Below, piece after piece: positions 18,383 through 28,445 of a DNA stretch of 28,445 nucleotides (positions are counted from its first letter, which is position 1; each line of letters begins with the position of its first letter). Made by a program: the position numbers and the translations under genes. The notes under the pieces were generated by a model. The model did not search any database. It was not told the origin of the DNA and saw only the letters and a list, made by a program, of their open reading frames with translations. Source of the stretch: a virus. The stretch is taken from positions 1 to 28,445 of IMG/VR virus record IMGVR_UViG_3300042888_000219, one strand, 5' to 3'.

Positions 18383-21300
18383 TTATACAGGTTTTTGTGT
18401 TATTGTTAGCCAAGTTTGGTCTGCAAACATAGTAAAGTAGTCTTCCTCTAGAGACATTCCTGTGTCATCATCAGAAACTATAATGTTTGTTCCACAATAT
18501 GCTGAATAAATATCTGCAGGAGTTATAGAAAACTCTGTACTTTCACCTAGTACATAAATATCTTTCCATTCATTTGGTATGGTGAGTACCCCATTTTCAT
18601 CGTACCACTCTCTCCAGTCAACAATATTCAAAGGGTTTGGATCTTGATCGTTATAAAGAATATCCGTCCATATTCTTGGAATAACAATACTAAACTCATT
18701 CAATCCAGATGCTTTAAAGAATGAAAGATTGTTAAACCTTAAACCATACAGCATGTTTATTGATCCAGAATATCCAGAAAAGTCTAGAGGTATACTGAAA
18801 GAAAAGGCCAAAGCGTTCCATTCATCCTTCAGTATGTATGGATTTGTTACGCTTATTCCGTTTTGATAAAAAGTTAGGTTTGGATAATCTATCAATGTTC
18901 TTTGATCCCTGGCAGAAACATAATATCTTTTTGCAGTGCTATCTGGGGTGATAATAAACTCTATCGTTCCTTCTGTGTGATCCAAAGTAAATAACTTTTG
19001 AGATGTAGGAATTGGTTTATCAACATCAAACTTCACAAACATCTGAACAGCGCCAAGTCCATAATTAATACTTTTGTTTTCGTTTATAGGAACGATGATC
19101 CCATACTCTTTATCTGCATCAGTTTCCAAAACCCTAAGTCCTGTTTTTTCTGTTAAGTATAAGTAAGGTAAATTATCTTTTCCAATAAGTACTGGATTCT
19201 TTGATTTACCACTATAATATATTCCTGTTTTTACATATGGATAGATATTGTACCCACTTCGAGTACCTATAGGTGTTAATCCATTTTCGTTTAATGATTT
19301 TGCAGCTATCTCAAGGCTTCTAACTTTTAGAGGATTACTAATTATTCCATCTTGCTTTATGTCAAAATGAAGAACCATAGCAACATTCTCAAAACTAATT
19401 TTTTTAGGTGGATAGATAACTGTTCCATCAATAATCCTAAACTTAGTTTTATATGCTTGATATGGATTAATATTTGTATTTTGTTTTTCTGCATATACTG
19501 TATAGGAATCTGTTAAATTTTTAGTATCAATAAATCTAGATAGGGGCTCATCTGCTCCCTCTGCAAGAAGTTGGAAGGTTACATAGGCATCAAGAGACGA
19601 GCCACTTGTATCTATTTCATATTCTGTAAGAATGTTTTCTTTTAGATCTTCATAGTTATCATATCCACTTAAAATTGAATTATCCAATATTTCATAACTT
19701 TTTTGTATTGGATCGTTATAGTCATCAAACAACTCTTGGTATGTCCAGTTTGGATTGTCTACCGTTGTTTCAATAATTTCAATTAGCGATGGATATCCAT
19801 AGTTAACTTGAAGGTAGTCAATGTCATAGGCTCTTGATCCATCTCTTGTTGTTATATAAGATGCAAAAGATGAAAGAGGAAAGTATTCTTCCCATTGAGC
19901 CGAAACTGAAATATCAAGGAAGTAGGTGTTGTATCTAAAGAAAGGTGATAGAGTATATGATGAATAATGATTCTCAAGCAAGGCTTCGTCATCATAATTT
20001 ACTATCCCCGTGGCAAGATCGAAATGCTCAGATATTTCTTCAAAGTTTGACTGATCTGAAAATCCTAATCTATATATTTTTCCTTCAAATGTTACAGAAC
20101 CATCTCCACCAACAAAAACACTTAAGAGTTCTGGTGATCCAAAGAATGACGAAAGCTCAAAGTTGAAAGATTGAGATAGTGTGGGGATGTGGAATCCAAC
20201 TGCAAAGTGAGTGTTGTCTACTGTGATTCCTGTACCGTCTAACTCTTGTCCATCAAAAACATAAGATACGTCATATCCATCTATATTTATTTCAAATCTT
20301 TTTCCATTTAAATTGTTTACTATGTGAATAAGAGGTCTTGAGTAGTTAACTTCTTCCTCTACCTCAAAAACTCCGTAGATAGAACTTAGTGGTGTAGAAA
20401 GAAAGGACATGGTTTGGAAGTTTAGATAGCATTGTTCTGTCCAGTTGGTTCCAGTAACTGGTTCCCACGTTGAAGACTCTATACTTGGTCTAAAAGAAAA
20501 GAACAATGGGTGATCTTTTAAAGGATAAAGTAAATCATTCAAATCTTTATTGTCGGAATACCATTCTGATCTATCTCTACCCCCCAAGTATATATCTGGC
20601 AAAGAGTATCCTGGAACAGATATAGAGTTAGTTGTCGCAACTAAGTTGTTGTAGTAGCCAGCGTCCCACCTTTCCATGTCTGGGTAAACTTTACTGTTGC
20701 TATATTTTGCATTGGAAAATTGAACAACTGCTTCTTCTCCATCAAAAGAATCATTAATAAGTTCTACTGGATCAGTTCCCTGCCCCCAAACAAATCTTTT
20801 TCTTGCAACCTGCAAAGGAACTGCGTAGGGAAAAATAGATACACAGTCTATTTCAAACATACTAAAATCTGGGTATGAGTAAAATCCAATCCAATCACTT
20901 TCAGATCGAGATAGAGAAGCTCTGTCAACTGTTATCTGACCAACTTGCTCTCCATTAATAAACATAGATACATTTTCATCCTTTATCACTAAGTGAAGGA
21001 GCATTGGTCTATACCATTCATATACGTTATGAGATATAAACTTTTTATCAATTACCAAGGTGATAAATCCTTCAGTTACATATACCCCATCATCTGTATC
21101 TAGTGGGCCAAGTATTCTTCTTGATTCTTTTGTTATTGGTCTTACTTTTAACCATGTTTCAAAAGTAAAATCTTTGTAGCTTCCCTCTAAGGTAAACATT
21201 TTTTTATTAGGAAAGATAATTGAAGGAGTCCCCTCACCTGATGGATAGACTCTAGTAACATTTTCTGATCCAAAAATCATTGGAATTCCCACGTTTTTTG

Positions 21301-22051
21301 CAAAAAGATTTCCACTGTCTGCCAGATAATATGCATTGTCCGATAGAATTCCATACTGATCGGCTTGCACAGCATCTAAAGATAGACCAGAAGAGAATGG
21401 TGCGCTTTGAGGAGTTGCCCCCAGAGATGATGAGATATAAGCTTCTGACCATTGTCCAACAGTAATACCATTAAATATAAAGTTATAATCTCCTGATATT
21501 CCACCTGTATTTACCGTTGCTCTAAAAATAAGTCTACAGAAATCTGAATCAAACTCTTGTATGGTAAAAGTATCTTGTAAATGATTCCATCCAGATCTTT
21601 CTATCGGAGTGAATTCTGTTAATACTTCAACCCAGGAAGATGATCCATTGTCGTAATACTCGTAACCAATCTCATATTTTGACACATAGTTTGATCCTTG
21701 ATAAACATACATGCTTATACAGAAAGTTTCCAAGTCTTCGTTGCACTCATTGAATGCAAAAATATCGGGGCTTATAGCTTCAATAATCATTCCGTCAGAT
21801 AAGGGAACGTTTCCCTGAATACCCGCATAGATGTCGCTATCAAATGGCGATCCTTGGTCTGGAATGGAAAGCCCATCATCGGCAGTTCCATTAGTAATAG
21901 ACCATCCTGGATAAGGAGAAGACCCGACCTCAAAAGTTCTTTGTTGATTATCGATTAAAGATATGTAAGAAACATCATCGTCTAGTGGCCAAATTGCAAC
22001 TGGATGTTCAGAATATAGTCTTGCCGCATAAAGATTTGAAACAACGCTCAT
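18383..22051 (-). CDS. Large LamG/concanavalin A-like virion structural protein (1222 aa)
   Basis: Probably a large virion surface or tail-appendage protein. The N-terminus (MSVVSNLYAARLYSEHPVA) leads into a beta-rich region at about 50-205 (SSSWVEVLTEF, WNHLQDTFTI) that looks like a carbohydrate-binding type sandwich. Residues about 283-420 have the LamG/ConA pattern: FTLEGSYKDFTFETWLKV, then a strand region, VSMFINGEQVGQITV and IDCVSIFPYAVPL. A similar lectin-like pattern recurs near the C-terminus, about 1010-1170 (VQMFVKFDV, GTIEFIITPD, YYVSARDQRTLIDYPNLTFY). The middle is rich in Tyr, Ser and Asp with no recognised motif. No catalytic residues, signal peptide or coiled coil were seen. 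The start has SD TAGGAG and an extended -10 promoter. The gene lies between RNR and the pre-portal gene, upstream of the head module, an uncommon place for an adhesin. Function in glycan binding is inferred. Confidence 0.75.
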   Translation of the reverse strand: MSVVSNLYAARLYSEHPVAIWPLDDDVSYISLIDNQQRTFEVGSSPYPGWSITNGTADDGLSIPDQGSPFDSDIYAGIQGNVPLSDGMIIEAISPDIFAFNECNEDLETFCISMYVYQGSNYVSKYEIGYEYYDNGSSSWVEVLTEFTPIERSGWNHLQDTFTIQEFDSDFCRLIFRATVNTGGISGDYNFIFNGITVGQWSEAYISSSLGATPQSAPFSSGLSLDAVQADQYGILSDNAYYLADSGNLFAKNVGIPMIFGSENVTRVYPSGEGTPSIIFPNKKMFTLEGSYKDFTFETWLKVRPITKESRRILGPLDTDDGVYVTEGFITLVIDKKFISHNVYEWYRPMLLHLVIKDENVSMFINGEQVGQITVDRASLSRSESDWIGFYSYPDFSMFEIDCVSIFPYAVPLQVARKRFVWGQGTDPVELINDSFDGEEAVVQFSNAKYSNSKVYPDMERWDAGYYNNLVATTNSISVPGYSLPDIYLGGRDRSEWYSDNKDLNDLLYPLKDHPLFFSFRPSIESSTWEPVTGTNWTEQCYLNFQTMSFLSTPLSSIYGVFEVEEEVNYSRPLIHIVNNLNGKRFEINIDGYDVSYVFDGQELDGTGITVDNTHFAVGFHIPTLSQSFNFELSSFFGSPELLSVFVGGDGSVTFEGKIYRLGFSDQSNFEEISEHFDLATGIVNYDDEALLENHYSSYTLSPFFRYNTYFLDISVSAQWEEYFPLSSFASYITTRDGSRAYDIDYLQVNYGYPSLIEIIETTVDNPNWTYQELFDDYNDPIQKSYEILDNSILSGYDNYEDLKENILTEYEIDTSGSSLDAYVTFQLLAEGADEPLSRFIDTKNLTDSYTVYAEKQNTNINPYQAYKTKFRIIDGTVIYPPKKISFENVAMVLHFDIKQDGIISNPLKVRSLEIAAKSLNENGLTPIGTRSGYNIYPYVKTGIYYSGKSKNPVLIGKDNLPYLYLTEKTGLRVLETDADKEYGIIVPINENKSINYGLGAVQMFVKFDVDKPIPTSQKLFTLDHTEGTIEFIITPDSTAKRYYVSARDQRTLIDYPNLTFYQNGISVTNPYILKDEWNALAFSFSIPLDFSGYSGSINMLYGLRFNNLSFFKASGLNEFSIVIPRIWTDILYNDQDPNPLNIVDWREWYDENGVLTIPNEWKDIYVLGESTEFSITPADIYSAYCGTNIIVSDDDTGMSLEEDYFTMFADQTWLTITQKPV

Positions 22052-22120: not shown

Positions 22121-24070
22121 TTAAGCAGAAATGAGGTCAACTACTTCACATGAGCCTGATCCCGCTGTGCAAGCAAGTTCTTGAGATCCAGATGTATTGT
22201 CTTCTAGTTCATACAAAGGAAGTGATTCCCATGGAATTCTTTTTGGCATTTTTGCTACCAATTCTTTGTACTCTTCTTCAGTAATCTCTTGATATGGCGC
22301 TTGTTTGTACGAATGTTCAGATGCTGGTAGGAACGAAACGCCACCTATAGAATCAAAGTTTTTAAATACCCAAGCTCCAACATCTAGCCATTCATCTTCT
22401 TTTATGTTGATAGTAACTGATGGATTATGTTCTGTCCAATGAGTCCTGTAAACCTTCCAGACTTCAAGGTGCTCTATAGCAGAAATATCTTCTGTTACTA
22501 CCGCATTCTTTGGTGCTTTAATTGGAAAAGAGAACACGGTAGTTGAATCTACTTTCATTACGTCTGGTTCATTAGGAACATCAAAGTCTTTTAGGAATGC
22601 CGTCAAAGGATCTTTATTGTCTGCACGAACGGTACGAATGTAATACTTAGAATACCAAGGATGAATTCCACTTGAAACACCTGTTAATTGAGACACAGTT
22701 CCTGATGGTTTTACCGTGGTTATAGCAACAGAAGGATTGATTCCAAGAACTTCTGCCTCTTCCTTATTAGTCTCAATAGATGATTCACGAAGTCTATCAA
22801 GCATTGCAGAAAGATCCTTGTGCCTTGTTCCTGTTAGTGGATTTCCAAAAATACCAGTAAGAGATACACCAAGAAGTCTTTCTTCTTCACAGTTATCTTT
22901 CCAAGATTTACGAATATACTTGAAATTAGTTAGACTTGATTGCCAAGTGCCCAGAATTGTTGCAATTCTAATCTTATCTTTTAGAGTTTCTTCTGTATCA
23001 CTTGCATCAATTACTACTTCTGTTAAGTTACAGAATTCATTAGCCCTTAGAAGAATTTCTCCACAAGGGTTTGTACCAACAACCTTTGATGAATCACGCC
23101 TTCCAAACTTATCTATATGCTTGCGAACAGAATCCATGTTGTAGATTCCTCGTTCACCTGACTTTGATTCATATAGGTTTCTCCACTCACGAAGAAATTG
23201 AGCAGTATTTGGTTTTGCGTTGTATACCGCTGAGTTATTAGCAAGTGCTCTTTGACCTTCTGTTTCCCACCATTGACCACTTTTTGCCTTGGCCATTTCA
23301 AAATCATCCAAATTGGAAAGGGAAATTAAGGCAGATCTACGGACTCCGCCAACAACAACTACTTCTCCGACCTTGCACATAATGTCGTGAGCCTCAATAG
23401 GCTTTAATCGCCTTCCTGCGGCTATCTTAAACTGTTCAACGGTAAACCTAAAAAGATCTGCAAGTGGTTCTGGACCTGATGCCCTACCTCCAAAAGTTTT
23501 TAGTCTTGCTCCTGCAGGACGAACCTTTGACATATCCCAATTGGGAATTTGTCCAGTAACCAACAGCCCAATAAGTTCTTTGTATGCCTTTGCCCATCCA
23601 AGCTTTGAATCTTCAACAACAATGGTTGTTCCTGTTGGGTAAAGTTCTTCTGATATCACAGGAAGATTATTTACATACTTCTGTTCAACAGAGAATCCTA
23701 CGCCTGTTCCATTCATCAAAATGTACATGGCTTCATCAAAAGATCTCAAGGAATCAACAGCAATAAAAGAACAGTTGTATGATGCAATGTTGTCTCTTTC
23801 TAGTGCTGGTCCTGCTGTCATCAAAGATCTCATGGAAGGCATTACCTTGTGATGCAAGATTGCTTCTTTTACTTGAGCAAACTTAATATCATTTTCCTTG
23901 TAATCATAGTTCTTTACAAGATGATCTTTCATAAAGTCAATGTATCGATCTACTGTCTCAGACCACGTTTCCCTCCTGCCCTTGCTTTCTATCCAACGGC
24001 TGTATCGTGAAACTGCAATAAAGTTGCGGTATGGATCTAAAATTGATCCATCTGAGTCAATAAATGTCAT
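22121..24070 (-). CDS. nrdJ: Adenosylcobalamin-dependent (class II) ribonucleoside-triphosphate reductase, monomeric type
   Basis: It reduces ribonucleotides to deoxyribonucleotides for phage DNA synthesis in the host cytoplasm, using a B12-derived radical and needing no oxygen or second subunit. The key residues fit the Lactobacillus RTPR scheme. SYNC (C100) and C347 form the reducible pair. NPCGEI holds the thiyl-radical C336 with N334 and E338; the 11-residue step from C336 to C347 equals RTPR 408 to 419. FGGRASGPEPL (193-203), VVGGVRRSALISL and TVKPSGTVSQLTG are family signatures. A C-terminal cysteine pair (C634, C641) can act as the swinging reductant. At 649 aa it is about 90 shorter than the Lactobacillus enzyme (739 aa), with about 53 residues missing between the first cysteine and NPCGE, where the effector-binding insertion lies. 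SD: TTAGGAAAGG. Its place among virion genes is unusual. Confidence 0.93.
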   Translation of the reverse strand: MTFIDSDGSILDPYRNFIAVSRYSRWIESKGRRETWSETVDRYIDFMKDHLVKNYDYKENDIKFAQVKEAILHHKVMPSMRSLMTAGPALERDNIASYNCSFIAVDSLRSFDEAMYILMNGTGVGFSVEQKYVNNLPVISEELYPTGTTIVVEDSKLGWAKAYKELIGLLVTGQIPNWDMSKVRPAGARLKTFGGRASGPEPLADLFRFTVEQFKIAAGRRLKPIEAHDIMCKVGEVVVVGGVRRSALISLSNLDDFEMAKAKSGQWWETEGQRALANNSAVYNAKPNTAQFLREWRNLYESKSGERGIYNMDSVRKHIDKFGRRDSSKVVGTNPCGEILLRANEFCNLTEVVIDASDTEETLKDKIRIATILGTWQSSLTNFKYIRKSWKDNCEEERLLGVSLTGIFGNPLTGTRHKDLSAMLDRLRESSIETNKEEAEVLGINPSVAITTVKPSGTVSQLTGVSSGIHPWYSKYYIRTVRADNKDPLTAFLKDFDVPNEPDVMKVDSTTVFSFPIKAPKNAVVTEDISAIEHLEVWKVYRTHWTEHNPSVTINIKEDEWLDVGAWVFKNFDSIGGVSFLPASEHSYKQAPYQEITEEEYKELVAKMPKRIPWESLPLYELEDNTSGSQELACTAGSGSCEVVDLISA

Positions 24071-24210
24071 AAAAAACCTTTCCTAATTTTAATTTGTGAA
24101 CATTGAGTATATCACTTTTATGTCTTTCAATGCAACCTCATCTGTAACATTTTTATAAATATCGTTGCAAATAAATAATTTTTGAAATAGTAATCTTTAT
24201 AACAATTGTA
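24071..24210 (-). other. 140-nt intergenic region between tail fibre and RNR
   Basis: This very AT-rich spacer holds the RNR promoter. I see no open frame with an SD and no strong hairpin; TGCAAC and GTTGCA could pair only across a loop of roughly 29 nt. Confidence 0.5.
24106..24114 (-). promoter_or_regulatory. Extended -10 promoter (TGATATACT) of the RNR gene
   Basis: This is a one-mismatch version of the TGNTATAAT motif found before other genes. A poor -35 (TTGCAT) lies 18 nt upstream of the hexamer. The predicted leader is about 28 nt and carries the SD TTAGGAAAGG. Confidence 0.55.
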
Positions 24211-25485
24211 TTACATTCCAGCAAACATCAAAACAGATTCAAGGCCGATGGTTCCTCCACCACTTGTAGGGGTTTCCCATGTTGGTGCTGATGATCCATT
24301 TGATGTTAGAACTTGTCCAAGTGTTCCCGCAGATGTTATTGCCATTGCGGTACCTGTAGAATAAACTGCTCCGCCATTAATAGCTGTTAGAGATGCATTT
24401 GTTCCTCCAGATGCTAAAGATATGTCTGTGGCATCCCAGGTTCCTGAAGTAATTGTTCCAACTGTTGTAGCTGCTGCTGAGTTTACTGCTGCTGTTGTGA
24501 CAATTTCTGTTATAACATTTGCTAAAGTTTTTGGCCTAAGTATTCCATCAGAAGCAATTTCAACTAAGTAGTGGGATGCTGCAGTTACAGTATCTGCTGT
24601 AGTTAAAGATAATAGTGGAACTACTACAGTACCTGTAAAGGTTGGTGAGGCAGATAAAACAACATTCCCCGTTCCTGTAGAAGTAGTGACTCCAGTTCCA
24701 CCGTTTGCTACTGGCAAGGTTCCTGAAACATGTGTTGTCAAACCTATTTTTCCGTAAGATGGCGCTACTCCTACTCCCCCAGATATTAATGCGTTTCCTG
24801 TGGCAATATCTGCTAACTTTGCTAAAGTAGTTGCTCCAGATGCATAGATTATGTCTCCTATAGCATAAGAGGTTAGTCCCGTTCCACCCTTATCAACCGA
24901 AATTGTTGTAGCATTCCAGGTTCCTGTTGCAATTGTGCCTACAGAAGTAAGGCTTGAAGTTATTACAGAAGATCCTAGAGTTGTTGAACTAAGAACAGAA
25001 ACATTGTTTATTTCATAAACTTTTCCTGTTGCAATGTTTATATCGCCAGCAAAGTTTGTTTGTCCAGAAGCATTGCCGATATTTGTTGTTGTTGCTGCTG
25101 CTCCTATATTAAGAGTTGTAGCTGTAGCATTTATTAAATTAAATGTTGTTGCAGAAGTTGTTATATTTCCACCATTTACCGCCAAATCTCCTGTTATAGC
25201 AGTATTTGCATTTCTAATTGTTGTCGTTCCAGTTGTTGCACCAATAGAAACAGTAGTGGCTGCTTGTCCAACGCTCAACGTTGTAGCATTTGCATTAAAA
25301 ACTGTAGCGGTAAGGGCTGTAGTAGTAAGATCTCCCCCATCTACCCGAACATCATTAATAAAAATGGGGGTGGTTAAAAATGAATCAAGATTTGCAGCTA
25401 AATCCTCTATATCTGATGCTACGTTTACTGGATCAGTAGATAAAGGATAAGATAAAAAGTAGTTAGGAGTTGATCCTGTTGCCAT
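24211..25485 (-). CDS. Repetitive tail fibre protein (424 aa)
   Basis: Probably a trimeric tail fibre shaft. The start MATGSTPNYFLSYPLSTDP is a typical N-terminus of phage fibre proteins of this kind. Residues about 55-150 are Thr/Ala-rich short repeats (ATTLSVG, TTVSIG, TTTIRN, ATTLNIG, TTTNIG) spaced as in beta-helical shafts. From about 180 on there are copies of the fibre motif GTWNAT-x-I...GGTG: GTWNATTISVDKGGTG, LPVANGGTGVTT and GTWDATDISLASGGT. The C-terminus (TIGLESVLMFAGM) shows no peptidase S74-type chaperone. Composition is low-complexity with very few charged residues. No SD precedes the ATG; an extended -10 sits six bases upstream, so the message is probably leaderless. Attachment to the baseplate and receptor specificity are inferred. 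Confidence 0.85.
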   Translation of the reverse strand: MATGSTPNYFLSYPLSTDPVNVASDIEDLAANLDSFLTTPIFINDVRVDGGDLTTTALTATVFNANATTLSVGQAATTVSIGATTGTTTIRNANTAITGDLAVNGGNITTSATTFNLINATATTLNIGAAATTTNIGNASGQTNFAGDINIATGKVYEINNVSVLSSTTLGSSVITSSLTSVGTIATGTWNATTISVDKGGTGLTSYAIGDIIYASGATTLAKLADIATGNALISGGVGVAPSYGKIGLTTHVSGTLPVANGGTGVTTSTGTGNVVLSASPTFTGTVVVPLLSLTTADTVTAASHYLVEIASDGILRPKTLANVITEIVTTAAVNSAAATTVGTITSGTWDATDISLASGGTNASLTAINGGAVYSTGTAMAITSAGTLGQVLTSNGSSAPTWETPTSGGGTIGLESVLMFAGM

Positions 25486-25491
25486 ATTTTA

Positions 25492-25500
25492 ATTATATCA
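25492..25500 (-). promoter_or_regulatory. Extended -10 promoter (TGATATAAT) of the tail fibre gene
   Basis: TGATATAAT is exact on the coding strand. Only six bases separate the TATAAT from the ATG at 25485, so transcription should start at or within a base or two of the ATG. The gene has no Shine-Dalgarno, consistent with a leaderless mRNA. Confidence 0.7.
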
Positions 25501-25510
25501 TCTTAAGATG
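25499..25510. promoter_or_regulatory. Perfect 12-bp palindrome at the tail fibre promoter
   Basis: CATCTTAAGATG is a perfect inverted repeat. Its left end supplies the TG of the extended -10 element, so a protein bound here would cover the spacer and compete with RNA polymerase. It may be an operator, or chance in AT-rich DNA; no second copy was noticed in the window. Confidence 0.3.
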
Positions 25511-25558
25511 TTTTTATAATAGATTATTGCTGTAAAAGCATTATTATATAACAAAATC

Positions 25559-25576
25559 AACACATGTCACTGTGTT
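25559..25576 (-). terminator. Weak hairpin after the small tail-region gene
   Basis: AACACA pairs with TGTGTT around a six-base loop about 30 nt after the stop at 25608, and the minus strand continues into a T-rich GATTTTGTT. It could be a weak terminator before the tail-fibre promoter. The stem is only six pairs and mostly A-T, so confidence is low. Confidence 0.25.
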
Positions 25577-25607
25577 AAAAATTGTTATTGATTGCTAGAT
25601 GGTTGTG

Positions 25608-25850
25608 TTATTCAGTTACTTCTACAACTGGTGCAATAAAGATATCTGCTTTACTGTCATAGGTATAACCAATGCCAGCGTAGCAATCCCTTATAGTTCC
25701 ATTGTAACTCGTCCTGATCCAAGTACCGTTTAAGCCAATACCGTGAATGTACGCCTCAATTGCTGCATCCGATTCCGTTGCATCCAAATCGTCAGGGACA
25801 ACAATTACTTCCCGAACGATTCCATCCTCTATACGCGCTGCATGTGCCAT
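25608..25850 (-). CDS. Small conserved tail-region protein (80 aa)
   Basis: The protein begins MAHAARIEDGIVREVIVV and contains GTWIRTSYNGTIRDCYAGIGYTY, then ends APVVEVTE. I recognise the pattern (a short N-terminal strand, then W-x-x-TSYN and YAGIGYTYD) from small proteins encoded near tail-fibre genes in many aquatic phages, usually of unknown function. An open frame extends upstream to 25946, but it overlaps the end of the glycine-rich gene and is Arg/Cys-rich there. The ATG at 25850 has a proper SD (AAAGGA) and leaves a 26-nt gap, so I chose it. No catalytic motif, membrane segment or signal peptide is visible. Its role, possibly as a tail-fibre accessory, is inferred from position only. 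Confidence 0.75.
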   Translation of the reverse strand: MAHAARIEDGIVREVIVVPDDLDATESDAAIEAYIHGIGLNGTWIRTSYNGTIRDCYAGIGYTYDSKADIFIAPVVEVTE

Positions 25851-25876
25851 GATTATTTTCCTTTCGTGTATTTGTT

Positions 25877-27562
25877 TTAGATTGCGTAGCGAACAATAAC
25901 AACACCGGAACCGCCTGCGGCCCCGGTTGGCTGCGACGCATTCCAACCACCGCCGCCACCCCCACCACCAAGATTGGCTGTGCCTGCTGTTGCCGCCGCA
26001 AGTCCGGCACCGTCAGAATCTGCGCCGTTTCCACCGCCTGAAGTACCAGTTCCTTTTGTTTGACCACCGCCACCACCGCCACCCGCGTAGCCAACCGAAG
26101 CACCTGTAATGGTTGAGGTTGTACCGGCCCCGCCGTTTCCGCCGTTATTACCCGAAGCCGCGGAACCGACCGCGCTAGATCCACCGCCACCACCGCCACC
26201 GGCTGCCCCATTTCCGCCATTGTTTCCTTGAGTAACAATTCCAGAACCGCCAGCCGTTGATGTGTCACCACCGCCGCCACCTGAACCACCAAATAAACCT
26301 GCACCTGTGTCACCGCCACCAGTGCCGCCGCCGAAGGTTGTAAACGATCCAAGACGTGTTTCCGAACCTCTTGACGTTGCGGCTCCGCCTGCCCCGATTG
26401 TCACCGTATGACCAGCAACGGGTAAATACAAGTTGGTTAAATAAATTAAACCACCAGCGCCACCACCGCCACGACCGTAACCACCGCCGGCTGTCCCAGT
26501 TCGACCGCCTGCTCCACCCGCCACAACGAGGCAGTCCACAAACCCTGCACCACTCACTTCAAGAGTCGAACTCGAAGTAAACGAATGGACACGGTACAAC
26601 TGACCGTTCACACCATTCGTACCGTCACCCGTGTAAGTCGTTACAGTTCCACCAGTAGCACTAACACCCGCTGCTGAACCGGCAGTAATTGTGCGAACAA
26701 TGACAACACCGCTGCCACCGGCCACACCATTCGCTGAACTTCCTGTACCACCAGCACCTCCGCCCGTGTTTGCAGTACCCGCTGTTCCAGCAGCGCCGCT
26801 TCCACCTGCACCGCCTCCACCAGCGCCACCAGAACCAGCACCAGTAGTAAAACTGCCACCTCCACCGCCTCCTCCAAGAGTTACAGATGTCCCGGTGATT
26901 GTTGAAGCCGTCCCAGCACCACCTGCGCCACCTGCCGTTGCACTTGTGCCGTTTGCGCCTACTGCGCTACTTCCACCACCGCCTGCGCCTGCGCCATTAG
27001 CGCCAACAAAACCATTGCCACCGGCAAAACCATCAACAATAAGACTTGCGCCGCCGTTACTCGCGGCAGCCGGTGTTCCACCACCACCGCCACCGCCACT
27101 GCCACCACGGAAACCAAAGTAACCAGAGTTGGATTGGTTGTTATTTGTTCCACCACCGCCTCCACCTATGGCTTGAAGTGATCCAAGTTTTGAACTACCA
27201 CCGTTTGATCCGCCACCGGCCACACTTGTGGAATAAACTGCACCAGCCCCGCCAGCACCTACTGTTACGGTAGTACTTCCTGCTTGCAAGAACTGCGAAC
27301 TTATTGAAAGAACTTGAGCACCACCACCGCCACCGCCCTGCGAACCACCACTACCGCCACCGCCACCAACAACTAGCACATCCACAACACCGGAACTAGA
27401 AACAACTAAACTTCCTGAAGACGTGAAAGTTCTCACCTCATAAGTGATCCCCCCATCCGTGTAAGTAGTAATCGTTCCACCACTAGAAATTTGTGCAAAA
27501 CGACCCGCTGTCGGGATCGCTGACCCTGCACCGAGGGCTGTTGAAAGTTTAGAAATAGTCAT
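25877..27562 (-). CDS. Large glycine-rich tail/adhesion protein with two poly-Gly modules (561 aa)
   Basis: A longer paralogue of the preceding gene. Module 1 begins with VVDVLVVGGGGG near residue 60 and contains TTVTVGAGGAG; it closes near residue 300 with GVAGGSGVVIVR. Module 2 begins with VDCLVVAGGAGG near residue 345, contains HTVTIGAGGAA, and closes at the C-terminus with AAGGSGVVIVRYAI. Each module is preceded by a similar threonine-rich strand containing TTYTDGG or TTYTGDG, so the whole lead-in plus poly-Gly unit is duplicated. The start ATG overlaps the upstream stop by one base and has an SD (TGAGGA). The DNA is much more GC-rich than the flanks because of GGN codons, which also produces long spurious proline-rich frames on the other strand. 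Probably a tail-tip or fibre adhesin; partner and receptor are unknown. Confidence 0.85.
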   Translation of the reverse strand: MTISKLSTALGAGSAIPTAGRFAQISSGGTITTYTDGGITYEVRTFTSSGSLVVSSSGVVDVLVVGGGGGSGGSQGGGGGGAQVLSISSQFLQAGSTTVTVGAGGAGAVYSTSVAGGGSNGGSSKLGSLQAIGGGGGGTNNNQSNSGYFGFRGGSGGGGGGGTPAAASNGGASLIVDGFAGGNGFVGANGAGAGGGGSSAVGANGTSATAGGAGGAGTASTITGTSVTLGGGGGGGSFTTGAGSGGAGGGGAGGSGAAGTAGTANTGGGAGGTGSSANGVAGGSGVVIVRTITAGSAAGVSATGGTVTTYTGDGTNGVNGQLYRVHSFTSSSTLEVSGAGFVDCLVVAGGAGGRTGTAGGGYGRGGGGAGGLIYLTNLYLPVAGHTVTIGAGGAATSRGSETRLGSFTTFGGGTGGGDTGAGLFGGSGGGGGDTSTAGGSGIVTQGNNGGNGAAGGGGGGGSSAVGSAASGNNGGNGGAGTTSTITGASVGYAGGGGGGGQTKGTGTSGGGNGADSDGAGLAAATAGTANLGGGGGGGGWNASQPTGAAGGSGVVIVRYAI

Positions 27563-28356
27563 TAGTTTGTCCTCACTCGCACGATTACTATGCCAGAACC
27601 ACCAGCAACACCATTTGCAACGCCCTGTGCGCCACCATCTCCACCATTTCCTCTATTCGCTGTTCCTGCTGCCGGTGTACGGATAAATGAAATACCACCT
27701 TTGCCACCGACACCGTAAGTCACTGAACTATTAGTAATAGAGTTTGCTACACCAGCACCACCGTTGCCAATCGAAACGTTATAGCCACCAGTTTGACCAT
27801 TGGCTGAAGCGCCAGCACCACCACCAGCACCAGAACGACCGTCTGGCCCATCCGCTGCGCCACCAGCGCCACTAAACCCACCAATTAGTGACCCACTAGC
27901 CCCAGCCCAAACATTTCCCCCACCACCGTGTGCCCCGTTGCTCCTGCTATTAAAAGCGCCAGTTCCTCTTGCTCCTCCTATACCAGTAAGTTGAACAATT
28001 CGAGAAAATCCACCATCTGCATTTGCTGCACCACCAGCACCTACCGTCACAGAAACCGTACCAGAAGGCACAAAAAAACTTGTACTATAAATTACTGCAC
28101 CCGCTCCACCGCCACCAGCGGAAGTTCTTGATCCGTCTGTTTCTCCACCGCCACCGCCACCACCACCAACAACAAGAACATCACAGACTCCTGCTGTTGT
28201 AACAGTAAGGTTTCCAGAAGCAGTAAAAGTTACATATTTGTAGTCAACACCAGTGTCGGTATAAGTACCAGTAGCGGTATTAGAAAAGTTGGCATTGATG
28301 ATAGCGGTGGTATTAGTATTTGCTAAACCTGCCTGCTTAAAACTATTAATAGCCAT
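27562..28356 (-). CDS. Glycine-rich tail/adhesion protein (264 aa)
   Basis: This is probably a virion surface or tail-tip protein. A short N-terminal segment (about residues 1-50) is followed by a strand-rich lead-in ending in CDVLVVGGGGGGGG at about residue 60. A long Gly/Ala/Ser-rich stretch with a TVSVTVGAGGA motif comes next, and the protein closes with GVAGGSGIVIVR. This order matches the widespread glycine-rich domain of phage tail proteins; poly-glycine helix bundles are known in some phage adhesins (T4-like gp38), but homology to those is not shown here. The same unit occurs twice in the next gene, so the two are paralogues. The start has a good SD (CGGAG) and overlaps the upstream stop (TAATG). 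It has no enzymatic motif, signal peptide or membrane segment. The exact role in host binding is inferred. Confidence 0.85.
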   Translation of the reverse strand: MAINSFKQAGLANTNTTAIINANFSNTATGTYTDTGVDYKYVTFTASGNLTVTTAGVCDVLVVGGGGGGGGETDGSRTSAGGGGAGAVIYSTSFFVPSGTVSVTVGAGGAANADGGFSRIVQLTGIGGARGTGAFNSRSNGAHGGGGNVWAGASGSLIGGFSGAGGAADGPDGRSGAGGGAGASANGQTGGYNVSIGNGGAGVANSITNSSVTYGVGGKGGISFIRTPAAGTANRGNGGDGGAQGVANGVAGGSGIVIVRVRTN

Positions 28357-28445
28357 TAGGAAATCTCCGAAACAAATGCACTAAAATTACAAGTGTTAGC
28401 GGAAGATGATACACGGATAAAGTTTGCTGCAGGCATTGTAATACC
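28356..28445 (-). CDS. 3' end of an unidentified upstream gene (partial)
   Basis: An open frame of 29 codons plus TAA enters from the right edge of the window and ends with residues VSEIS. Its stop overlaps the start of the next gene by one base (TAATG), the same coupling seen between the two glycine-rich genes downstream, and the Shine-Dalgarno of that next gene (CGGAG) lies inside it. Given its position it is probably the end of another tail or adhesion gene, but too little is visible to name it. The frame is short enough to be open by chance; the coupling is the main support. Confidence 0.6.
   Translation of the reverse strand, partial: GITMPAANFIRVSSSANTCNFSAFVSEIS

Follow-up and report, generated by a model that had tools for sequence, protein, structure and literature searches.

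Putative tail adhesins of a metagenomic virus combine position-specific frames with glycine-rich heads exchanged at conserved joints

Recombination between conserved motifs reportedly swaps the specificity of T-even phage adhesins, to judge by the title of work by Tetart et al. in 1998. The T-even protein gp38 has been described as a protein at the gp37 tip in which one glycine-rich domain follows a beta-helix part, with glycine-rich strands as the scaffold and hypervariable loops that set receptor specificity (PMC12892980). The cyanophage Pam3 fibre gp24 is described as a TNF-like part with a glycine-rich lattice whose variable distal tip is proposed to bind the host (PMC9608196), and glycine-rich "brush" domains related to those of mycobacteriophage Bxb1 are thought to contact lipid-rich walls (PMC13243795, PMC13252515). 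Here we analyze a window that is the entire IMG/VR virus record IMGVR_UViG_3300042888_000219 (28,445 bases, cut at both ends) and, within it, the adjacent genes for two glycine-rich proteins, A264 and B561, together with their companions U110 and SM80. We consider it probable that A264 and B561 serve as adhesins of the tail tip or a tail fibre and that their three Gly_rich_2 modules have frames fixed to their positions and heads exchanged at two joints.

A preliminary description of this DNA had claimed that one module occurs three times, once in the first protein and twice in the second, and that the genes overlap by one base; both claims proved correct. The motifs of the module lie at residues 59 (DVLVVGGG), 102 (SVTVGAGGA) and 249 (GVAGGSGIVIVR) of A264 and at residues 61/98/279 (module 1) and 343/386/547 (module 2) of B561, whose last module has them in slightly altered form (DCLVVAGG, TVTIGAGGA and GAAGGSGVVIVR). 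Both open reading frames (ORFs) are present and share base 27562 (junction ...CTAATGAC...), with the overlap in the form TAATG that is also found between U110 and A264. Over their full length, the other modules align to the first with 48% and 45% identity. The wording "tandem paralogues" fits in that the same module occurs three times, but not in the sense of a recent tandem duplication, as the positions are long separated and common to other phages.

Both proteins score above the curated cut-off of 24.3 bits for Pfam family PF21722 (Gly_rich_2), with 86.7 bits for B561 and 55.4 bits for A264 as whole proteins, and this is the only Pfam family that matches them at E <= 0.1. For comparison, 58 modules were taken from 24 chosen loci (hidden Markov model [HMM] span >= 200, score >= 60; the HMM scores of the locus survey carry no bias correction, and glycine inflates them); a partial module (L037, 13-600) was excluded from the resulting alignment, A2, in which 57/57 modules, the three of the window included, match Gly_rich_2 at E <= 0.001. 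Pair counts given below exclude more distant glycine-rich proteins (e.g., L009, L011, L013, L039, and L154-L157), and the PF21722 survey covered 50 of the 70 records first listed. No match was found in NCBIfam, in PDB sequence searches with B561, the module profile, or the SM80 profile, or in a tblastn search of annotated phages with B561, the last presumably through low-complexity filtering of the query.

Structure prediction had been proposed as a check, and an AlphaFold model of A264 built on the 57 modules (predicted local distance difference test [pLDDT] 86.1, predicted template modelling score [pTM] 0.85) divides the module into a short, TNF-like beta frame and a head rich in glycine. 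This predicted, not solved, structure matches the Pam3 fibre with Z 14.6 (2.6 Å, 170 residues aligned) and, as second-best fold, a Bxb1 tail-tip protein with Z 12.4, far above the glycine-rich domains of ALK/LTK at a Z of about 6. Module 1 of B561 gave Z 14.9 with Pam3 and 15.3 with Bxb1, from a model whose pTM as a whole is only 0.54. In BFVD, 218 models match at E <= 0.001. Algal viruses (Micromonas pusilla virus SP1 and Bathycoccus viruses) are among the sources of similar glycine-rich models in the comparison of model m815e7451b826 with BFVD, so the fold is not restricted to phages.

The likeness to Pam3 gp24/gp25 lies in a TNF-like part that is continuous with a glycine-rich lattice, as seen on the predicted model, and in a small partner protein that is described for Pam3 as encoded alongside the fibre; a variable distal tip that binds the host would, by this analogy, fit A264 and B561. 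In contrast, gp24, a homotrimeric fibre with a cognate chaperone, is built from a single module behind an N-terminal helical docking domain, and SM80, which we liken to the chaperone gp25 by gene context, is half its size. The likeness to the Bxb1 polyglycine domains lies in the fold and the tail tip. T-even gp38 (T2, PP01, and S16) resembles the proteins studied here in its mode of working, a glycine-rich scaffold with variable loops and recombination at conserved flanking motifs, and not in kinship; it differs in that the locus described here has several tandem TNF-like and glycine-rich modules on two genes and in that whole heads change position. No gp38 family appeared among Pfam matches at E <= 0.1, a match of B561 to phrog_863 "tail fiber assembly" (5e-7) is weak and prone to composition effects, and the absence of S16 gp38 among the fold matches listed is no argument against kinship. 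Finally, phage proteins with PF21722 (e.g., Synechococcus phage Bellamy and Pelagibacter phages HTVC023P and HTVC033P) share the domain, two-module genes, and paralogue clusters, but most are listed as "glycine-rich domain-containing" or hypothetical, and the entries seen assign them no function. Neither the domain nor its fold is new, and for T-even phages a glycine-rich adhesin has already been claimed to recombine at conserved motifs; neither whole-head exchange between tandem module positions nor the link to SM80 was found in the open-licence papers searched, outside which many journals lie.

In a tree, the 57 modules group by gene position (A, B1, B2, C1, and C2) with few exceptions. The plainest of these, the second modules of contigs L016 and L150, which sit with the B1 module of the window inside the B1 group, is explained because frame and head differ when the module is split at the DxLVV motif. 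Among the 1596 pairs of modules (230 from the same position, 1338 from different positions, and 28 between unclassed modules), the 36-amino-acid frames have median DNA identities of 63 to 81% at the same position versus 50% at different positions, and the heads have 51 to 55% versus 53%. Composition alone is insufficient to account for the same-position frames, as codon shuffling gives a floor of 44.4 ± 4.5% for frames (47.9 ± 1.7% for heads). All positions conserve the structural glycines and the end motif, with identities of 0.88 to 0.90 in head columns of at least 80% glycine and 0.76 to 0.88 in the C-terminal motif, while the other head columns reach 0.34 to 0.38 and the gappy loop columns, which are nearly without positional signal, only 0.15 to 0.16. 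The constant scaffold with variable loops that had been predicted for these proteins is therefore seen, and equal variation of the two is not.

The heads themselves have moved. The B561 gene is a mosaic with respect to contig L150, in that nucleotides 1 to 206 of the gene match L150 at the same position (88%), nucleotides 167 to 870 match the head of its second module (85%), and nucleotides 844 to 1045 match its linker and second frame (86%); these alignments overlap by 40 and 27 nucleotides, at the codons of DVLVVGGGG and GGSGVVIVR. The B1 head of the window is 85 to 86% identical in DNA to the module 2 heads of L150 and L016, compared to 44 to 46% for the frames, and the maximum chi-square method placed breaks in B561 at nucleotides 186/187 (against L150) and 210/211 (against L016), with 0/2000 permutations in each case. 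In the contig pair L008/L023, mismatches cluster up to nucleotide 180, only four (221, 224, 233, and 634) fall in 181 to 1718, and they are dense again from 1719, just beyond the stop codon, and in the pair L026/L160 the head of the last module is near-identical between two motifs. At synonymous sites, head and frame disagree both ways, with differences of 0.00 in the head and 0.69 in the frame for L023/L008 but 0.71 in the head and 0.23 in the frame for module B2 of the window and L149. The easy recombination that had been expected of this DNA is thus observed in three contig comparisons, in which heads moved between positions and contigs at framework motifs. Recently shared heads have an omega of 0.11 to 0.26 and are therefore kept rather than racing, and because they are under purifying selection, head diversity appears to come mostly from exchange and not from rapid point mutation. 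Head-only searches returned no close copy of the A264 head or the B2 head, and for the B1 head they returned the already known L150 contig and one 55% relative.

A further case comes from isolates. Melnitz-2 and Melnitz-3 are 99.8% identical over 5010 nucleotides that end within a fibre gene, past which one enters a glycine-rich head and the other an unrelated end (Melnitz-2, L198, 10717-11010 and beyond, versus Melnitz-3, L197). This pair supports head replacement but not the exact joint, because its break precedes the DxLVV joint, and it is one of several observations that weigh against our interpretation. Others are that the breaks in L026/L160 and L008/L023, with few mismatches, are placed only to within tens of bases; that heads with at least 75% DNA identity occur in only 7/1596 pairs, so that few direct exchange events were observed; that SM80 homologues lack an adjacent glycine-rich gene in 7/20 annotated loci; and that the A264 model lacks a helical docking domain of the Pam3 type. 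In fact, no helix of at least 4 residues is found in the A264 model and only one, at residues 4 to 9, in that of B561, where the N-termini of the models have low confidence.

In the explanation we favour, each module would consist of a TNF-like beta frame of ~36 amino acids that is tied to its position, together with a head of ~190 to 240 amino acids, in which glycine-rich strands are stacked and the tips form a variable surface. The heads would face the host at the tail tip and serve as interchangeable parts, and homologous recombination at the codons of DVLVVGGGG (base) and GGSGVVIVR (end) would move an intact head between positions and phages. Such exchange in coinfected cells could change binding, so that specificity would be changeable with the frame, the neighbouring module, and the attachment to the tail undisturbed. 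SM80 and U110 travel with the modules, SM80 most likely as an aid to assembly. The predicted fold and the synteny of the locus suggest that A264 and B561 are located in the virion and bind receptors, and they may assemble as trimers and affect host range. More tentatively, and with the odds somewhat against it, we speculate that position-specific TNF-like sockets on two genes take heads from a common pool via two standard joints, that this pool is shared by unrelated aquatic phages, that one virion shows several independently exchangeable specificities, and that SM80 acts in assembly generally, whatever the head.

Other explanations are less likely. That A264 and B561 are virion parts with a general role, as a brush or decoration for wall lipids or glycans, with specificity residing elsewhere (e.g., in the 424-amino-acid fibre or the 1222-amino-acid lectin-like protein), is unlikely in our view, yet it is the most serious of these alternatives. 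It would agree with the fold match to the Bxb1 tail tip and the wall contact proposed for brush domains related to it, with a capsid match in a metagenome-assembled genome (MAG) of Actinomycetota, and with the presence of other candidate binding proteins in the same record, but a general brush needs no large pool of unlike heads under purifying selection, and the loops of PP01 gp38 and of the Pam3 fibre are described as binding, or are proposed to bind, specific receptors. We regard it as improbable that the head exchanges are assembly chimeras, in which short identical stretches at the motifs joined frames and heads of co-occurring phages. All three exchanges do rest on metagenome contigs, whose breaks coincide with sequence common to frames and heads, and L008 and L023 are almost 100% identical over 1.5 kb but have different flanks. 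However, the window, L150, and L016 are separate records that differ by 12 to 16% in frames and head alike, and the shared B1 head is therefore not a recent contaminant; both L150 and L016 carry this head in position 2; the lack of positional signal in heads extends across all 57 modules and does not come from a few joins; and the Melnitz isolates, near-identical beside the break, differ by replacement of a glycine-rich head.

Still less probable is a history with no exchange at all, in which selection holds the frames and heads diverge fast through point mutation and small indels. Such divergence could produce the range of head lengths (188 to 242 amino acids), loop columns far more variable than glycine columns, and a conserved frame with an unlike head in most same-position pairs. 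Against this, heads can be much more alike than their frames at synonymous sites (0.00 versus 0.69 in L023/L008, and 0.05 versus 0.68), one head occupies two different positions, and the omega of recently shared heads is low; unless they are chimeras, these pairs already speak against such a history. The preliminary description had also suggested a host-range switching cassette; as a programmed switch, driven by an invertase, a retroelement, or phase variation, this is unsupported and, to us, barely credible. Modules are clustered, and their number per gene (1 to 4) varies with the contig, as a switch might have it, but there are no inverted repeats of at least 20 nucleotides in 24100-28445, no recombinase or reverse transcriptase was recognised on reading the ORF list of the window (which covers the genes inside the cut record, not every ORF being run against families), and the pattern fits ordinary homologous recombination. 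We retain head exchange between position-specific frames of putative tail adhesins as the best account of the locus.

The companion genes add to this account. When 25 SM80 loci were chosen regardless of glycine-rich genes, a gene with a glycine-rich module ended 0 to 43 nucleotides upstream of SM80 in 20/20 with at least 600 bases upstream (of the remaining loci, four had too little DNA and one was cut). Among 43 records chosen by nothing but their capsid, 8 have the glycine-rich domain, 6 an SM80 homologue, and 5 both (Fisher p = 3.3e-4), although in one of them, G017, the two are not neighbours. Annotated phage records with an SM80 homologue hold the domain over the cut-off in 20/20 fetched (of 26, some being near copies); a glycine-rich ORF lies within 64 nucleotides upstream in 13 of these loci and within 4 kb in 6, and none is in the stretch for 1. 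The idea that SM80 always adjoins a glycine-rich gene is weakened by these loci, as other genes intervene in the cyanophages S-SSM5, P-RSM4, and S-TIM4. The most likely role of SM80, by its genetic link, is to assist the assembly of the glycine-rich proteins. In a side observation, the SM80 homologue at G035:C1:12539-12787 has a profile match that contains one TAA, yet an 82-amino-acid ORF is called there.

The 29-amino-acid end of U110 matches contigs L149, L150, L016, L151, L031, L161, L023, and L026 at 72 to 86%. In L161, the order is tape measure, a 400-amino-acid phrog_5313 protein, an 88-amino-acid protein, U110, A, and B, and phage phiPsal1 has the same tail order, with an SM80 homologue and one glycine-rich ORF that is unannotated; the U110 homologue in this genome is listed, by similarity, as a putative virion structural protein. 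The glycine-rich ORF of phiPsal1 (MG835450.1, L163:3096-4004; PF21722, 2.8e-25) abuts the SM80 homologue, and its place in the record is given to two short hypothetical genes. The phiPsal1 genome is said to have come from sequence data of the actinobacterium Pontimonas salivibrio and to have since been lost (PMC6106888).

Coordinates of the locus and of its modules, frames, heads, and joints in the window are collected in Table 1.

Table 1. Features of the glycine-rich module locus (window positions)
Feature	Position	Strand	Basis or remark
U110, last 29 codons and stop	28356..28445	-	Cut by record end; TAA overlaps A264 ATG by one base (TAATG)
A264, single-module glycine-rich protein, 264 aa	27562..28356	-	ORF call; AlphaFold model, pLDDT 86.1
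A264 frame, position-specific, 36 aa preceding DxLVV motif	28183..28290	-	AlphaFold model; pair comparison
A264 glycine-rich head, between joint motifs	27577..28182	-	Motifs; pair comparison
B561, two-module glycine-rich protein, 561 aa	25877..27562	-	ORF call; AlphaFold model, pLDDT 80.0, pTM 0.54
B561 module 1 frame	27383..27490	-	Same-position match to L150 and L016
B561 module 1 head, same head as module 2 of L150 and L016	26693..27382	-	Heads 85-86% DNA identity, frames 44-46%
5' joint of exchanged head, around DVLVVGGGG codons	27357..27396	-	Overlap of two alignments
3' joint of exchanged head, around GGSGVVIVR codons	26693..26719	-	Overlap of two alignments
Linker and module 2 frame of B561	26537..26692	-	86% to L150 linker and second frame
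B561 module 2 head	25889..26536	-	Motifs; no close copy among viral contigs
SM80, 80-aa companion protein (phrog_7759)	25608..25850	-	Starts 26 nt past B561

On the minus strand, the genes follow in transcription order as the end of U110, within which one end of the record falls, A264, B561, SM80, a 424-amino-acid fibre-like protein, a B12-type ribonucleotide reductase, a 1222-amino-acid protein, a 138-amino-acid protein, portal, a 442-amino-acid gene, capsid, and a 3014-amino-acid tape measure, whose frame runs off the opposite end. By its position between portal and capsid, the 442-amino-acid gene may encode a protease. The B12-dependent (class II) ribonucleotide reductase gene (22121-24070) thus lies between fibre and structural genes, and the 1222-amino-acid protein (18383-22051), with weak matches to Laminin_G_3 and CBM_4_9 below the Pfam cut-offs, is another candidate binding protein. 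The GC content of the two glycine-rich genes is 57% and 49%, compared to 38% in bases 1 to 25876, but their GC at third codon positions (0.35 and 0.25) falls inside the span of 0.17 to 0.36 covered by nine other genes, so the rise reflects glycine codons, and foreign DNA was rejected as its source. The preliminary description had called this DNA repetitive and GC-rich, which holds for its raised GC and its short glycine-codon repeats (the direct-repeat families listed are of 20 to 87 nucleotides) and not for inverted repeats, of which none of at least 20 nucleotides was found in 24100-28445, or for tandem arrays, which score at most 52 within the A264 and B561 genes.

The layout of a single-module gene, a double-module gene, and SM80 recurs in L149, L016, L031, and L161 (where SM80 is cut by the contig end). 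Two double-module genes are found in L023, L026, L027, and L151, other contigs carry a lone double-module gene or, in L152, a gene of four modules, and in L150 two other genes occupy the place of A264. Module number accordingly differs between contigs, in line with the copy-number change that had been suggested as a check. The unit U110-A-B-SM80 recurs in phages without the capsid and portal genes of the window: neither gene has a match in seven records reached via modules or SM80 (G044-G050; possibly fragments), and G046 has a different major head protein, while both genes are present in the other five of the 12 records searched, which were chosen by capsid. Within the capsid group, the place upstream of the reductase holds a four-module gene in G007 and other fibre genes with one distant glycine-rich protein in G006, and no glycine-rich gene was found in the stretches fetched from G005, G009, G012, G016, and G018. 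In G009 and G016 (L172 and L174), runs of at least 10 genes for proteins of 220 to 290 amino acids stand there instead, upstream of the ribonucleotide reductase; those scanned resemble 2OG-Fe(II) oxygenases, a short-chain dehydrogenase, a methyltransferase, and DUF6065, and the arrays were rejected as repeated adhesins. The sole capsid relative among genome contigs (77%) is on a 4.9-kb contig of the Actinomycetota MAG (L196, RGSB01000058.1) and is a weak hint to the host.

It is difficult to identify the receptor-binding proteins of aquatic phages that have not been cultured, and those rich in glycine mostly stay annotated as hypothetical. SM80 may serve as a simple genomic marker for such adhesins, as 20/20 annotated records searched that have a homologue carry the domain. 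Should heads prove to be exchangeable units bounded by fixed joints, the two motifs could be used to excise them from metagenomes, so that they could be catalogued and linked to hosts, and host-range change in these phages would then have to be sought in head exchange rather than in loop mutation.

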